Of a DNA stretch of 64,000 nucleotides, positions 16,139 to 22,813 are shown piece after piece (the first letter of the stretch is position 1; every line of letters begins with the position of its first letter). The notes beneath the pieces were generated by a model. The model was not told the origin of the DNA. It ran no database searches and saw only the letters and a program-made list of their open reading frames with translations. The stretch spans positions 62,001 to 126,000 of the forward strand of contig NZ_VZCB01000079.1 in assembly GCF_009494395.1 (NCBI RefSeq). Direction: 5' to 3'. The position numbers were made by a program, and so were the translations under genes. Origin of the DNA: Segatella copri. GTDB lineage: Bacteria; Bacteroidota; Bacteroidia; Bacteroidales; Bacteroidaceae.

Positions 16139-17518
16139 ATGGCAGACGTACAATATCAGAAAGTAACAGAATTCGGTACCACAACCGCTTTGAACGGAAG
16201 CGACTACGTGTTTGTAATCGCAGGAGGAACACCGAAAAGAATCACGCTCGACAACCTGCGAGCAATGATGGAAGAGAACCAGCAGCAGTTCTTAGACGAG
16301 AACGCATTCTGGATTGAAGAGAACACAGCATCAAGCAGGGGATCCGCATACTGCGAGACAGGAGGCAACAGCCTCATGCGCCAGATTTGGCTGTCGAAGA
16401 TTACGGCAATCCTCATGACACCAGACGGACACTTCACCCGTCTGAACCCGAACGACCACCACTACACAGCAGACGGAGACCAGGTCGTGAAGGACGGAGC
16501 CGTGGTAGCAGCATACAAGAATGCCGATTGGTTCGGTATGCTCGATGGCGGTTATTGGAACTACCTCCAGGAGGTGACAATCGGAGGAGTTAAGCACATC
16601 AGACACCACATATCGCTCACACCGCTGCCTGGTGGCTGGTTTACCAAGAACGTCCCTGTCGGCATGTTCAAGTGCACCATTCAGAACGGACAGATGCGAA
16701 GCATTCCGTTTGTGGTTCCGAGCGGAGGCAGCAACATTAATCAGTTCTTCAACTACGCCCAGGCACGAAGCAAGAACCATGGACTAGCAGGCGAGCCGTT
16801 CAGAAACCTGCTCCTGCAGTACATCATGGCGAAATACGGGTACCGAGACATTCAGAACCTCACAGCATCCGATGGTACAAAGATTTTCGGATGCGGTCTT
16901 GACGGAACAGAGAAGAGCGCAACTTCAACATTAGCGGACGGATTCGCAAGACAGAAGAACATCAAGACAGGCGCATGCCTGGCATTGGGCTACAGCGACG
17001 GAAAGGTCGCTGTCAAGGACGCAGACAACTTCACATGCCACAGCGTAAATGTTGGCGTATGGGGTGACCCATACGGTCAATATTGGGAAATGGACGGACA
17101 CCTTTGCTCGGTAGGAAGCGACGTTTATCAATGGGACGACAACTTCATGCCTACAGGCAAGCCGACGACGGACACCTTCAAGGCTATCAAGTACAACAAG
17201 CTGACCCGAGCAACAACCGACGGACTCCAGAACGTAGATATCAACCTCATCACCACGAAGGGAGCGCAGCACATGAGCTACGTACCGCTTAAGGCGCATA
17301 CAGGCGTGAGCTACGGAGATAACTATTGGTACAACGCAGAGGGACAGCTGTGGATTGGTGGCGGCGACTCGAGCTACGGTGCGTATTGCGGTCTCGCTTC
17401 TGCGAGCTCGACCAACGCCTGGTCGAATGCGCATGCGAGCATCTCGGCTCGGCTTGATTACCATGGCGACCTTAAAGAGGTCACCTCTGCCGAGCTGAAG
17501 AGACTCCTGGCATCTTAA
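16139..17518 (+). CDS. DGR target: tail-tip receptor-binding protein candidate with C-terminal variable repeat
   Basis: This 459-residue protein starts behind AAAAAGGAGAATAG. The N-terminus (QYQKVTEFGTTTALNGSDYVFVIAGG) resembles attachment domains of tail-tip proteins. The C-terminal part has GACLALGYSDGKV, SVNVGVWGDPYGQYWEMDGHLCS and then LWIGGGDSSYGAYCGLAS, the style of C-type-lectin-fold proteins diversified by DGRs. Variable codons alternate with a fixed frame of Gly, Cys, Ala, Ser and Trp, and about 21-25 residues follow the repeat. Downstream lie a second repeat copy and an RT. Altered residues would change the binding face and hence host range. That is inference from other DGR phages. 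Confidence 0.8.
   Translation: MADVQYQKVTEFGTTTALNGSDYVFVIAGGTPKRITLDNLRAMMEENQQQFLDENAFWIEENTASSRGSAYCETGGNSLMRQIWLSKITAILMTPDGHFTRLNPNDHHYTADGDQVVKDGAVVAAYKNADWFGMLDGGYWNYLQEVTIGGVKHIRHHISLTPLPGGWFTKNVPVGMFKCTIQNGQMRSIPFVVPSGGSNINQFFNYAQARSKNHGLAGEPFRNLLLQYIMAKYGYRDIQNLTASDGTKIFGCGLDGTEKSATSTLADGFARQKNIKTGACLALGYSDGKVAVKDADNFTCHSVNVGVWGDPYGQYWEMDGHLCSVGSDVYQWDDNFMPTGKPTTDTFKAIKYNKLTRATTDGLQNVDINLITTKGAQHMSYVPLKAHTGVSYGDNYWYNAEGQLWIGGGDSSYGAYCGLASASSTNAWSNAHASISARLDYHGDLKEVTSAELKRLLAS
17339..17452 (+). repeat. DGR variable repeat (VR)
   Basis: This 114-bp stretch in the 3' end of the target gene matches 17653-17766 at a constant offset of 314 bp with 99 of 114 identities. Differences sit at 17341, 17354, 17366, 17367, 17373, 17376, 17384, 17406, 17412, 17426, 17427, 17432, 17433, 17439 and 17452. 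Almost all fall in the first two bases of codons that would read AAC or AAT if restored to adenine. Looser similarity, again of adenine-compatible type, continues to about 17463. The fixed 3' end ATCTCGGCTCG would be the priming-side (IMH-like) segment. Confidence 0.85.
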
Positions 17519-17562
17519 AAAGGAGCAGGAAACTCAGCGAGAAAGACATTTAAAAAGGGGGC

Positions 17563-17580
17563 GTGGGGGATTCCCCCCAC
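17563..17580 (+). other. GC-rich hairpin between target gene and template region
   Basis: GTGGGGG (17563-17569) pairs with CCCCCAC (17574-17580) over a four-base loop. It lies 44 bp after the target stop and could terminate the target transcript or act as the DNA hairpin that some DGRs carry after the VR. No T run follows, so a simple terminator is less likely. Confidence 0.5.
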
Positions 17581-17619
17581 CCTTCAAATTTAGCCAAGAA
17601 AAAAAATATAGACAAAACC

Positions 17620-18039
17620 CCTCGCCCAGCTCGTGGCGAGGTAGGCAAAAGGGAAGGACAGCTGTGGGTTGGTGGCGGCACCTCGAACTTCGGTGCGGAT
17701 TGCGGTCTCGCTTCTGCGATCTCGAGCAACGCCTGGTCGTCTGCGAGTGCGAACATCTCGGCTCGAATTACTTCAACGTTTACGAAATAATAAACGACAC
17801 CCATAAGGACATCGGTACTGCGTCATGGGAAAATGTCCGCCTTTCCCGAGCCTCGGCAGCTGGTGCATAAGTATAGCCAGTGTTCAGCCGAAACAAATCG
17901 AACTTGCGCAGGCAACGCCCAGCGACCTGCCCGTGGTGTTAGTAAATCCGACCAAAAGGGTCGGAAGTTGAAAGCTCTGCACAGAGTGAAGCAAGCCCAA
18001 CGAGAACAAAGAACGAGCACGACTTGAAAAAAGAAAATT
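17620..18039 (+). ncRNA. Probable DGR template RNA region with flanking stem-loops
   Basis: No believable gene lies in 17519-18039. Around the repeat copy I see CCTCGCC/GGCGAGG (17620-17626 with 17635-17641) just before it, GGGAAA/TTTCCC (17827-17832 with 17842-17847) after it, and CCGACC/GGTCGG (17948-17953 with 17959-17964) further on. In the Bordetella phage DGR the RNA downstream of TR is structured and needed for cDNA priming; this stretch, which runs up to the RT start, is the matching place. RNA ends are not known. Confidence 0.55.
17653..17766 (+). repeat. DGR template-position repeat copy (TR place, but not A-rich)
   Basis: This copy occupies the expected TR place: non-coding, between the target gene and the RT, same orientation. 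It is not a normal template. Where it differs from the VR it has A at only six of 15 sites (17655, 17680, 17687, 17746, 17753, 17766). At six sites the VR has A and this copy has G, C or T. At three sites (17698, 17720, 17726) neither has A. It therefore looks like a mutated copy itself. It could be an overwritten template, a second VR remnant or an assembly error. Confidence 0.75.
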
Positions 18040-19464
18040 ATGCCGAAGAGACAGGGTTACATATATGATTGCACCTGGCAATGGGACACCGTGAAGGAAG
18101 CGGACAGGGTCTCCACAAGGCGCAAGAAAAACTACGGAGTGAAGAAGCACAAGAAGCAATGGTTGAAAGACCTTGTGGAAGTTCAACAGCTCATCATCGA
18201 CCGAAAGATCAAGACGGACGAATACCAGCACATGAAGCTGAAGAACGGAAAGAAGGAACGAGACATCAGCAAGCTGAACTTCCACCCGAACCACGAATGG
18301 CATCAGAGCCTCGTCTTAGTAAGCCACGACAGAATAGAGCGCACGTTGATTTCACACACTTATGCGTCAAGAATCGGCTACGGACAGATAGCAGCTGCGC
18401 TTCAAGTCAAGAGATGGCTAAGAGAGAACAGAGAAGAATGCAGATGGTTCGCCCAGGGCGACATTTGCCATTATTACGCTAACATATTGCATGCATTGCT
18501 GAGACAGAACCTGGAGCACATCTTCAAGGACAAGGAGTTCATCGACGCATACATGGAGCCGTTCGAGAGATTCACAGATGACGAGAAAGGGATACCGCTA
18601 GGCATTCGACCAAGCCAGGACAGCGGAAACCTCGCCCTCACGAGATTCGACAGGTTTCTAAAGGAAGTAGCCAAGGCACACCTTTACATCCGATACCTTG
18701 ACGATTTCGTCATATTCGGCAAGACGAAGGGCGAGGTCAAGCGAAAGATGAAAATGGCTACCGCCTTTTTGAAGGAGCTGGGATTTGAGGCACATGAGCC
18801 AAAGATCCGTCCGATAAGCGAAGGCTTGGACTTCCTCGGTTTCGTTTACTACGAAGGAGGCGACATGTTCTGGAGGAAGAGCGACAAGGTACGCTGGCTC
18901 AAACGAAGAGCCAAGGTCACCAACAAGCGCAGGCTCCACGAAATCGATGCAGCAGCATGGGGAATGATAAAATGGGGAAACCGACATTGCAAAAGATTAT
19001 TTAAAATGGAAACAGGAATAAATTTATCAGACTTAGGCATCAAGATGCCCGAGAAAAAAGACAAGAACGGAAAGCGAATCATCGACGCACCGAAGATTAC
19101 AACAGCCGTCATCCTTAACAAGGAGATAGAGGTCGTCGATTGGGTGCGAGACGTTGAGACATCATACGGCAAGGGACGATACGCATTAGAGATTGAATTC
19201 TACGGAGGAAAGAACAAACTCATCGTAAACAGCCCGAGCATGAAGCAGCTCATCGATGCGTTCGAGCAGGCACGAGTTACAAGATTCAAGGCAGTGGTCA
19301 TCGACAAAGGAGGCTCGCACTTCGAGTTCAGCCAGGTCAAGATTCTCGAGATTGACAAGAGACCTGTCGCCAAGACAGAGGATGGCAAGCTGATATACAC
19401 AGACACAAACGAGGTCGTAGATCTCACCAAGTTCAACAATAAAAAAGAGGAGACAAAGCAATGA
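18040..19464 (+). CDS. DGR reverse transcriptase with C-terminal extension
   Basis: This 474-residue protein copies template RNA into adenine-mutated cDNA. The first catalytic Asp is D141 (FAQGDICHYY), the DGR-type motif LGIRPSQ is at 187-193, and the YLDD box is at 219-222 (RYLDDFVIF); LDFLGFVYY at 263-271 follows as expected. The RT domain proper ends near 325. Residues about 345-440 form an extra strand-rich region (VVDWVRDVETSYGKGRYALE and so on), longer than common DGR RTs of about 300-400 residues. Start ATG 18040 has only a weak A-rich leader. The stop overlaps the next ATG (ATGA). Confidence 0.88.
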   Translation: MPKRQGYIYDCTWQWDTVKEADRVSTRRKKNYGVKKHKKQWLKDLVEVQQLIIDRKIKTDEYQHMKLKNGKKERDISKLNFHPNHEWHQSLVLVSHDRIERTLISHTYASRIGYGQIAAALQVKRWLRENREECRWFAQGDICHYYANILHALLRQNLEHIFKDKEFIDAYMEPFERFTDDEKGIPLGIRPSQDSGNLALTRFDRFLKEVAKAHLYIRYLDDFVIFGKTKGEVKRKMKMATAFLKELGFEAHEPKIRPISEGLDFLGFVYYEGGDMFWRKSDKVRWLKRRAKVTNKRRLHEIDAAAWGMIKWGNRHCKRLFKMETGINLSDLGIKMPEKKDKNGKRIIDAPKITTAVILNKEIEVVDWVRDVETSYGKGRYALEIEFYGGKNKLIVNSPSMKQLIDAFEQARVTRFKAVVIDKGGSHFEFSQVKILEIDKRPVAKTEDGKLIYTDTNEVVDLTKFNNKKEETKQ

Positions 19465-19913
19465 AACAGAAGTACGGAAACATCAGAAGAGTGTTCATGA
19501 CAGAGCAGCCAGCGATTTATGACAAGCAGACTCGCATCGCATACATGAACTTCCGGAAGGACTCGCAGGTACAGACAACCACCAACAGCGAGACCAGCAC
19601 CAGCACATCATCCAAGAGCAGCAAGGCGAAGGATGAACAGACAACCATCGAAGGCTTCAGCGGTTTTGTAATTCAGACCGATGGCATCATGGACTACGCC
19701 CACATCAAGAGCCAGCTCGTAGAGGCAGCGTTCCCACAGAAGGAGGAGCACGCCCTGGCATTCAACACCATCGATGCGCTGATGAAGAAGGTAGATGGCG
19801 AGGAGCTGACAGCAGAGGAGCAGGCAGACATTGCGAGTTACAAGGAATTCGCAGAATACCGCAACATTTGCGCAAACTGCGCCAAAGCAATCCTTAGTTC
19901 ATTGAAAGATTAA
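19461..19913 (+). CDS. Unknown protein translationally coupled to the DGR RT
   Basis: Its ATG overlaps the RT stop (ATGA at 19461-19464), so the two are probably made together. The 150-residue protein has an N-terminal strand part (IRRVFMTEQPAIYDKQTRIAYMNF), a Ser/Thr-rich linker (about 38-55) and a helical C-terminus with two cysteines in NICANCAKAIL. It could be an RT partner or a structural chaperone of the fibre that follows. It lacks the short, strongly basic four-helix character of the DGR accessory protein Avd, so I do not call it Avd. Confidence 0.5.
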   Translation: MKQKYGNIRRVFMTEQPAIYDKQTRIAYMNFRKDSQVQTTTNSETSTSTSSKSSKAKDEQTTIEGFSGFVIQTDGIMDYAHIKSQLVEAAFPQKEEHALAFNTIDALMKKVDGEELTAEEQADIASYKEFAEYRNICANCAKAILSSLKD

Positions 19914-19918
19914 TTAAC

Positions 19919-22813
19919 ATGCAGAAAAAGCGAACATTCAAGGCAGCGTTCACCTGCAGGTGGGCTCCTTCAGACGGCAAGGACGGAGAGAACGGAAAGG
20001 ACGGCATCGGCATCAAGTCAGCCGACGTGGTATTCACGCTTTCCACGAGCAACACCACGCCACCAGCTGACAGCGTGACATGGGTCACCCTTTTCTCCCA
20101 ACTTTATCTGATGGAGAACACCTACGTCTGGAGCTGCACCAAGACCGTGCTCACCAGCGGAGCGACCACCTACACAGGCAAGCAATGCCTCGGTGCGAGC
20201 AAGGACTTTGCAACCATCACGGAGCAATACGCTGTAGGAAGCAGCGGCATAACCGCACCAACCAGCGGATGGGGAACGAGCTACACGCCAACCAAGGAGT
20301 TGTGGCTATGGACACGCAACCGAATAAGATGGACGAGCGGTGCATACACTTACACCACAGCCATCTGCATCGGTTACTTTGGCAAGGATGGCGACAAGGG
20401 TGACAAGGGAGACCCAGGCAAGGACGGAACAGACGGCAAGGACGGAGAGAACGGAAAGGACGGCACTGACGGAAAAGATGGAAACGGCATCAGCACACAA
20501 ACAACCTACTTCATCGCCACCGACCAGATGAAGGTCGCCTCCTATTCTTCGGTTTATGGCTGGAGCACCACCTTCCCGACAGCGACCGAACAGAAGCCAT
20601 ACGTATGGAAATGCGTGAAGACGACCTACACCAAGAGCGGAACAACCTACTCCACGCCAGAACTCATCACCACATACCATAGTGGAGACAACGCCAACAT
20701 CATCGACAACGCAGCCTTCACAAGCGCAGGCAACATGACGGCATGGGCACTCCAGAGCCAATACCAGGCATTAAGCGGAAAGCAGGTACCAAGCGACAAG
20801 GGAGCCATTGATCCAACCAACAAGAAGGACAACCGCAACTCCTACCATGACACCTGCAAGGCTACAGGAGCAACCATTACAATGAAGGAGGTGCTGCGGC
20901 AAGTCATCCATAAGCCAGGTACCATCAACAAGCTGGCAGCAGGGCAATGGTACACGTTCAGTTTTTGGGCGAAGGGAAGGCAAAAAGTTATCCCGATTAA
21001 CGAGACAAGCAGCAGCTACGGATTTGCGGAAAGAAGCCTATACCTCGTCGCAGGAAGAACCTACAACATCACCATCGTGGGCAAATGCAGCCAGGATGCC
21101 GTAAACAATGGCAAGGAGCTACGAACATACATCTACAAAAGCGATTGGAGCGAAAGCGCATACACATCCACAGACTCCACCATCGTAACAGGCATACGGA
21201 TGACCTTCACGCCTAAGAAAACAGGCGAATACAAGCTGAATAGCTACATGTACAACCAAGACTACCCTCGAACAGGCACGGTCACGGTGTACCAATACGA
21301 GATAACTGACGGACTCGACCTCACCACCTTCATCTATCCGACAGCGGTGGACACGAACACCAAGATGATTGTGGACGGAACCGAGAAAGCAGCAACGCCA
21401 TCAGACCTGGGAGTTAGCTGGGCATTGACAAACGAATGGAAGAGGCATACGGTAACATTCAAGACCAAGGAATCCATGAACAGCGACGAACAGGCTGTCC
21501 TGTTCAGATTGCAGCCGACACCGAACGAAGAGGCGTACCGAGAGGTATGGATCTGCATGCCGAAGCTGGAGAGCGGAATGTTCGCCACAGGCTTTGTGGA
21601 CGGAATCGATGACCTGCGAGGAATACCAGGACTCATCGAGAGGACGAGTGAATGGGCAGCAGGTGTCGAGTTCCACAACGACGAGAACCTGACAGGAGGC
21701 ATCCGATACCTTGACTTGGTGACCGTCACCAACAACACGACAGGTAAATTCGAGCTTTACCAATGCAGGGTGACACATACGTCCACAGCAGCGAACGCAC
21801 CGAGCGACAACAGCGCAGAATGGCTAAAGCTGAACCAGATGCGACCAATCTACACGCCACTCATCGTGGCGAAGAATGCCGTCCTTCGCTTTTCGCAGAC
21901 GAACAGAATCCTCATCACAAACAGCAAAGACAAGGTTCAAGGCTGCTTCGGAGGTGTCGAGGATGAGGCAAACGGCTACCCTTTGTGGATTGGAGCGATT
22001 ACTGCTGCAGCAGCTAAGTTCAGAGTGAAGTACGGAGGACAGCTGGAAGCGAGCGAAGTAAGTATCACGGGTACCATTAACGCAACGAGCGGAACCTTCA
22101 ACAACGTTTCAATCGACAGCGGAACAATCGGAGGATTCACCATCAGCGGAAATGGACTGACAAACGACAAGAACTTCAACAACGATGCCTACATCATTCT
22201 TAGGAACGACAACGCTGGAGCATTTGCAGGAATCGGAGGCAACTTGCTTCCAGCATCGAGCGGACTGAGAGCCGTGGCACGATTCGAGAACGAAAACAAA
22301 AGTAGATGGTTTGAATACGACAATCTCGGACAGAACATCGCAATGCTGCTGTCGGCAAAGAACGCAGACAGAAACGTGGCATTGGAAATTCTAGGAGGCT
22401 GCATCAAAGGATTTGCACTCAACACGAAAATCATCACAACTAAGACCTACACCATCAGCAGAGACGAGAATGTGGTAAGTTACATAAGCGACTCAAACGA
22501 AAGCGGTAATTGGGTAGAATTCACGTTACCAGACATGCAATGGTACGACGAGGGGCACTTTGTCATGCTTTCGAGAGAAGCGGTCGGAGAATACTCCTTC
22601 AAAGTCAAGCCAGGGTACTGCTACGACAAGAGCGGAAAGAGGTATGAGACCTACATCTACAACAAGGGTAAACGCTACACCAAGAGCGGATTTGATACCG
22701 ATTTTTTCAGCGCATACGGCTCTTGCATTCTTGTATATTGCCCACGATGGCAGGTCGTTTCAAAGAACGCAGTTTTAAACAAGGGAATATGGCTCGCATA
22801 CGGAGTCATGTAA
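19919..22813 (+). CDS. Phage tail fibre with collagen-like repeats
   Basis: This 964-residue protein has an N-terminal head (FKAAFTCRWAPSDGKDGENG) and a longer Gly-X-Y stretch at about 157-191 (GKDGDKGDKGDPGKDGTDGK and on), which would form a collagen-like trimeric stalk. Beta-rich domains follow, then near residue 665-770 a shaft-like region (PLIVAKNAVLRFSQTNRILI, TINATSGTFNNVSIDSGTIG) typical of phage minor structural/tail fibre proteins, and a compact C-terminal domain. It lies after the DGR and before the lysis genes. It probably forms a side or central fibre for host contact. Confidence 0.75.
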   Translation: MQKKRTFKAAFTCRWAPSDGKDGENGKDGIGIKSADVVFTLSTSNTTPPADSVTWVTLFSQLYLMENTYVWSCTKTVLTSGATTYTGKQCLGASKDFATITEQYAVGSSGITAPTSGWGTSYTPTKELWLWTRNRIRWTSGAYTYTTAICIGYFGKDGDKGDKGDPGKDGTDGKDGENGKDGTDGKDGNGISTQTTYFIATDQMKVASYSSVYGWSTTFPTATEQKPYVWKCVKTTYTKSGTTYSTPELITTYHSGDNANIIDNAAFTSAGNMTAWALQSQYQALSGKQVPSDKGAIDPTNKKDNRNSYHDTCKATGATITMKEVLRQVIHKPGTINKLAAGQWYTFSFWAKGRQKVIPINETSSSYGFAERSLYLVAGRTYNITIVGKCSQDAVNNGKELRTYIYKSDWSESAYTSTDSTIVTGIRMTFTPKKTGEYKLNSYMYNQDYPRTGTVTVYQYEITDGLDLTTFIYPTAVDTNTKMIVDGTEKAATPSDLGVSWALTNEWKRHTVTFKTKESMNSDEQAVLFRLQPTPNEEAYREVWICMPKLESGMFATGFVDGIDDLRGIPGLIERTSEWAAGVEFHNDENLTGGIRYLDLVTVTNNTTGKFELYQCRVTHTSTAANAPSDNSAEWLKLNQMRPIYTPLIVAKNAVLRFSQTNRILITNSKDKVQGCFGGVEDEANGYPLWIGAITAAAAKFRVKYGGQLEASEVSITGTINATSGTFNNVSIDSGTIGGFTISGNGLTNDKNFNNDAYIILRNDNAGAFAGIGGNLLPASSGLRAVARFENENKSRWFEYDNLGQNIAMLLSAKNADRNVALEILGGCIKGFALNTKIITTKTYTISRDENVVSYISDSNESGNWVEFTLPDMQWYDEGHFVMLSREAVGEYSFKVKPGYCYDKSGKRYETYIYNKGKRYTKSGFDTDFFSAYGSCILVYCPRWQVVSKNAVLNKGIWLAYGVM

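Follow-up and report, generated by a model that had tools for sequence, protein, structure and literature searches.

In the model DGR, the template is protected by its distinct 3′ end. The template (TR) of the BPP-1 DGR "remains unchanged throughout the process", as a passage of PMC3240598 puts it, and an excerpt of PMC8867640 refers to an "invariant template RNA sequence". In the alignments summarized in a section of the survey PMC8144416, overwhelmingly at least 75% of the mismatches were at template A, and seven clusters were odd. In the collection of Yan et al. 2019, mismatches away from A are by themselves no rarity: a section of that paper lists non-A changes in 868 of 1,874 TR-VR pairs, and in 98 pairs these are the sole changes (PMC6642488).

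We analysed a window of 64,000 nt (the whole stretch of DNA under study) from Segatella copri, in which a near-identical pair of repeats adjoins a reverse transcriptase (RT) gene and one copy lies inside a target gene, the arrangement expected of a DGR (Table 1). The locus resembles the BPP-1 DGR in its RT class, in a TR located beside the RT, in a VR placed in a tail gene, and in the distinct 3′ ends of template and target. The RT class was assigned via 8ub7_A, which we take to be the BPP-1 RT and which was the nearest solved chain for a profile of 10 RTs (1e-22). The RT also matched Pfam RVT_1 (3.7e-13) and PHROG 1423 (6e-53), and its LGIRPSQ (residues 187-193), invariant across the alignment of 10 RTs, fits the (I/V/L)GxxxSQ motif described for DGR RTs in a section of PMC3521204. 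The target gene matched the tail protein PHROG 5302 (6e-11) and was 83% identical to its orthologues in the three close relatives described below. No convincing solved relative was found for this protein (best E 0.04), and the predicted structures were of too low a confidence to place either VR in a C-type lectin or Ig-like domain (mean pLDDT 33.6 for the VR1 target and 57.9 for the VR2 target). Directly downstream of the DGR, a tail-fibre-like protein with short collagen-like repeats is encoded at 19919-22813. Unlike the BPP-1 DGR, this locus has a mutated template and no identified Avd gene; the 150-aa ORF after the RT gave no family in Pfam and PHROG profile comparison and is, by position alone, a possible accessory protein.

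Table 1. Positions of the DGR features (window coordinates, except for the VR2 gene).
Feature	Position	Strand	Remarks
Target gene, 459 aa, tail-protein-like	16139..17518	+	ORF; VR1 near 3′ end
VR1, variable repeat	17339..17452	+	9/24 core template A's mutated
TR locus, adenine-mutated	17653..17766	+	11 changes vs relatives' clean template, 11/11 at A
Changed sites in TR	17668, 17681, 17689, 17690, 17698, 17714, 17720, 17726, 17740, 17741, 17747		
Template-type 3′ end, IMH*-like by position	17756..17774	+	Same as in relatives' three templates; differs from VR1 and VR2 ends
TR-RT spacer, presumed structured part of template RNA	17775..18039	+	17 mismatches in 258 compared columns vs G427
DGR reverse transcriptase, 474 aa, intact	18040..19464	+	LGIRPSQ and YLDD present
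150-aa ORF overlapping RT stop	19461..19913	+	ORF; no family found
VR2 gene, 201-aa protein, PHROG 11581 (unknown function)	L003:1111-1716 (G000:C24)		Second DGR target, 35 kb upstream of RT

VR1 and the template-position copy differ at 15 sites, a count from an earlier note on this DNA that our recount reproduced to the base. Its division of these sites was also recovered: A was present only in the template-position copy at six, only in VR1 at six, and in neither copy at three (17384/17698, 17406/17720, and 17412/17726). Differences in a DGR are expected at template A. When the window's own copy was used as the template, only 4 of the 13 core mismatches to VR1 and 6 of the 14 to VR2 were at A, the remaining 9 and 8 lying off the A's of the present template. 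The same comparison with the clean template of the relatives placed 9 of 9 differences of VR1 and 14 of 15 of VR2 at A. Judged by descent and layout, the locus is a DGR whose template has lost the restriction of differences to A, and neither VR1 nor VR2 can derive from the present template. The present template was therefore rewritten after the last writing of both VRs, or apart from them. With these counts, the window would fall among the outliers of earlier surveys (Roux et al.; Yan et al. 2019), and similar cases may therefore sit unrecognised there; the outliers described in sections of those surveys differ from the window in that no mutated template is demonstrated by means of close relatives. 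DiGReF requires at least 7 A-to-B changes, according to a passage of PMC3521204, and would therefore probably have missed the locus. Within the open papers covered, we found no report of a mutated DGR template.

The ancestral state of the template was recognizable in three close relatives, namely G427 (taken to be NZ_NOVE01000003.1, Prevotella sp. 885) and the IMG/VR contigs 3300029928_000016 (L008) and 3300001528_001090 (L009). Their phage DGRs share with the window the target gene, the remote VR2 gene, the place of the template, the spacer, and the RT, which showed amino acid identities of 89% (G427) and 88% (L008 and L009). The dN/dS of the RT was 0.09 in each of the three comparisons; the RT is under purifying selection. 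An RT search of 100 related genomes at E 1e-20 matched four including the source genome, the other three being 27-30% identical. With at most two candidates scored per genome and the source genome included, the repeat matched 4 of the 398 genomes surveyed in the genus and 20 of the 399 surveyed in the family. In 50,697 phage records, the matches were no longer than 75 nt and came from five Bacteroides or Phocaeicola phages.

G427 and L009 share a single template-position sequence over 119 nt, with A at every core site. Two A's are lost in L008 (its only differences from them) and 11 in the window. Over the 119 nt, the 11 changes of the window copy are all at A (28 A's; P = 2e-8). General divergence from G427 was 10% in the upstream 100 bp, 7% in the spacer, and 13% in the RT gene, with mismatches at A of G427 in 3 of 9, 5 of 17, and 48 of 183 cases, respectively. 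Related prophages with A at the variable sites, which a lost template predicts, were therefore found, fully in G427 and L009 and minus two A's in L008, and the proposal that both window copies are mutated products of a lost A-bearing template was borne out, as the relatives retain a template of this kind at the corresponding position. The proposal had extended to all 15 sites and held for 13, where the relatives' clean template has A; at the other two, 17341/17655 and 17452/17766 at the repeat edges, the templates of all three relatives share their base with the window's template-position copy, and these are ordinary differences between template-type and VR-type sequence.

Both outer flanks of the template are in place in the window, and its 3′ end is CGAATTAC, the template type, versus CGGCTTG after both VRs. 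The 3′ ends of templates and VRs, compared by sequence as IMH* and IMH, differ consistently across the four phages. Taken together, the clean templates of the relatives and the flank comparison indicated that the window copy is the orthologous template locus, which has kept its template-type 3′ end and has lost only A's. We are reasonably confident that a DGR-mutated sequence truly sits in the template locus.

The surrounding RNA features were also compared. A hairpin is located at 17777-17796, about 11 nt behind the template repeat; each of the four close phages has it, and its stem changes are partly compensated. A gained target-type end or hairpin behind the template was considered and set aside as uninformative, because all four phages share the hairpin and the template acquired no VR-type end. 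Of 75 predicted pairs in the TR-RT structure of the four phages, 4 were kept through two-sided changes and 4 were broken in one sequence each, three of the latter in the window (columns read by eye); the covariation term was only -1.62. An Rfam search gave no hit.

The third repeat copy, VR2, lies outside the window on the same contig, 35 kb upstream (G000:C24:44231-44337). Its gene is about 1 kb downstream of recT (the RecT annealing protein matched PF03837, 3e-27), near a gene of metallo-beta-lactamase fold, and its protein matches no tail family apart from the VR part. The gene was present in the four close phages and in four more distant contigs. Because it occurs together with VR1, TR, and RT on the contigs of L008, L009, and G427, the VR2 gene belongs to the same phage. 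A repeat search of the assembly (3.93 Mb, 111 contigs; 100% complete, 0.08% contaminated) found three copies, all mutated, and no hidden clean template. Accordingly, the suggestion of an active template elsewhere in the genome gained no support. A working template on an unassembled replicon or phage, with the window copy as a retired one, would account for the A's that both VRs require and the window copy lacks, but all three close relatives carry the template at exactly the window position and no copy beyond the three mutated ones was found in the assembly; we regard this explanation as very improbable. The sole other RT match at E 1e-3 (L007:940-2346, C40) was rejected as a second DGR RT on its QGG and YADD motifs, from which it is probably of the group II intron type.

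We next compared the mutation load of the window template with that of VRs. Relative to the clean template, 11 of the 24 core A's are mutated in the window template (4 to G, 4 to T, and 3 to C), 9 in VR1, and 14 in VR2, which has one T>G in addition. In the remaining six VRs, those of the three relatives, 11-16 core A's are mutated, giving a range of 9-16 for all eight VRs of the four phages. The load and spectrum of the template look like those of a VR and would correspond to about one round of DGR mutagenesis. No non-A change was present at 91 sites of the window template. Assuming that the event released the template from constraint, it would fall within roughly the most recent 8-9% of the period since the lineage split from the relatives. 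The six VRs of the three relatives fit their own templates except for T>G changes (0, 0, 0, 1, 2, and 3).

The four close phages have eight VRs between them, and all seven non-A changes in these were T>G (e.g., L003:1555, L009:9318, and L009:9349). Among the 42 non-A changes in 35 control pairs, there were 18 T>G versus 2 T>C and 2 T>A, together with 10 G>C, apparently edge effects. The T>G excess may come from selection, or this RT clade may have a second mutation channel that runs in one direction. T>C is given as the preferred change at T in a section of PMC6642488.

The 35 control pairs came from 30 other DGRs and had 449 of 491 mismatches at template A. The first control run comprised 24 entries, namely the window, three duplicates, two entries that formed no pair (L060 and L040), and 18 distinct DGRs; sites with A in the VR only were absent in 17 of these 18, with one site in L019 and six in the window. 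Twelve further DGRs came from searching genomes across the family, which gave 19 loci, all but these 12 having no second copy; here the downstream copy was taken as the template by position alone, and clean templates are favoured among these controls because the clean template had served as the search query. Over all pairs, VR-only A sites numbered zero in 32 of 35, and 1, 2, and 2 in L019, L057/L029, and L092, some of which may sit at misaligned edges; the window had 6 and 3. As to the loci counted, L053 was left out of the 17 RT-based viral loci because it starts at the RT; only L059 and L060 were run out of 11 RT-based genome loci (the others were at most 30% identical), L060 giving no pair; and seven of the 19 family-survey loci had at most one copy (L082, L083, L086, L087, L090, L091, and L093). 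L014 and L027 (VR2 only), as well as L024, L030, L039, and L040, were left unpaired, L044-L046 share one template over the compared stretch, and L051 and L052 are near duplicates. Two other loci have unusual template-position copies. That of L060/L038 (about 330 bp upstream of the RT in L038) has ACC and GCT versus the family-majority AAC and AAT and no VR partner, and the L047 template (L047:4672-4780) has AGC at one variable codon where most of the family have A. The L038 and L047 copies are possible further worn templates.

The earlier note had raised mis-assembly of a mixed population; a VR variant would then have been placed at the template position. This explanation has no direct support, and further VR variants in a mixed population could supply the content. 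However, the content cannot be composed as a mosaic from VR1, VR2, and the clean template. Of the 11 mutated bases, 6 are absent from both VRs, and the longest identical runs are 21 nt to VR1 and 18 nt to VR2. Towards the left, 12 nt shared with VR1 separate the last template-type base from the first mutated base, and towards the right, 18 nt lie between 17747, the last mutated base, and 17766, a base of template type. With such short shared stretches on both sides, artefactual joins would need reads spanning both. Considering also the completeness and low contamination of the genome, we judge an artefact unlikely.

How the mutated sequence reached the template locus was then considered. While the lost A's, the template-type flanks, and the intact RT are read directly from the DNA, the route is one that we infer. 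Our tentative preference is that a true DGR template locus was overwritten once, recently, by an adenine-mutagenised copy via its own cDNA (self-homing). VR1 and VR2 would be older products of the then-clean template. A mutated cDNA would have been made from clean template RNA, would have annealed to template DNA in place of a VR, and would have been incorporated between the template's own flanks. A single such event would suffice and no donor would be required, and we count the RecT of the phage in favour. For a reconstituted DGR, the authors of PMC12875486 argue in one section that the cDNA pairs with target DNA exposed in single-stranded form, the target stem-loop being important, though not strictly required, and IMH* is named there as the start place of cDNA synthesis. 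Against self-homing, the template keeps its distinct 3′ end, the protective feature of the model DGR; since this end is unchanged in the window, the protection would have leaked or been bypassed.

We lean towards self-homing over transfer from a VR, although a sister-phage VR would be almost as probable a source. In such a transfer, a realistic if less favoured possibility, the template interior would have been replaced by recombination or RecT annealing, with both outer flanks kept. Replacement by a second VR, as the note had proposed, is tenable only in this internal form, not for the whole copy, because the outer flanks and the template-type 3′ end were retained. At core positions 26 and 59, the window template has C, as do seven of the eight close VRs at each, and the phage has a recT gene. 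In an exploratory test, the mutated template resembled known VRs more than unselected mutagenesis would, with mixed results over five VR sets: the eight close VRs gave P = 0.022, four VR2s gave 0.007, 25 VRs gave 0.031, and 17 VR1s gave 0.059, but the four close VR1s alone gave 0.18, not significant, and all four of these scored above the template. This resemblance favours copying from a VR; site-specific bias of the RT could yield the same. The template of L008 (L008:9615-9733) also bears on transfer. It has lost the first two variable A's only (A>T and A>C at the first two variable codons), a 5′-limited tract that is odd for homing started from the 3′ side, and both L008 VRs carry the derived T and C. 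On the other hand, the donor in the window was neither VR1 nor VR2, since 6 of the 11 mutated bases are found in neither and the longest identity to either is 21 nt. As VR1 cannot have been rewritten from the present template, the donor would have to come from another genome copy.

The template still holds 13 of its 24 core A's. On the preferred reading, the DGR is eroded, not dead, and the remaining A's mean that new VRs would still be possible from a smaller repertoire. The term "frozen", suggested earlier for this DGR, is therefore too strong, given also the intact RT under purifying selection.

The mutated template of the window is the single clear case so far. In L008, all 14 core mismatches of VR1 and 11 of the 12 of VR2 fall on A's of the template in its changed form. 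Two of two changes at A gives P = 0.054 and C occurs at the second site in seven of the eight close VRs, so that L008 is only suggestive as a second worn template. If this reading of L008 is true, a worn template goes on working. We offer, as a rather doubtful extension, that DGR templates are mutable: phages of this family may occasionally write mutated sequence back, which would fix residues in every subsequent variant and reduce diversification step by step, as a one-way ratchet or by template assimilation. The window would then be a fresh large event and L008 an older small one, after which the altered template was used for both L008 VRs.

The window holds a natural template hit by its own kind of mutagenesis, and would be a rare case if the machine overwrote its own master copy. 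What protects the template from cDNA, how this protection fails, and whether DGRs wear out or adopt successful variants are now testable, with the close relatives and their clean templates as a built-in control.
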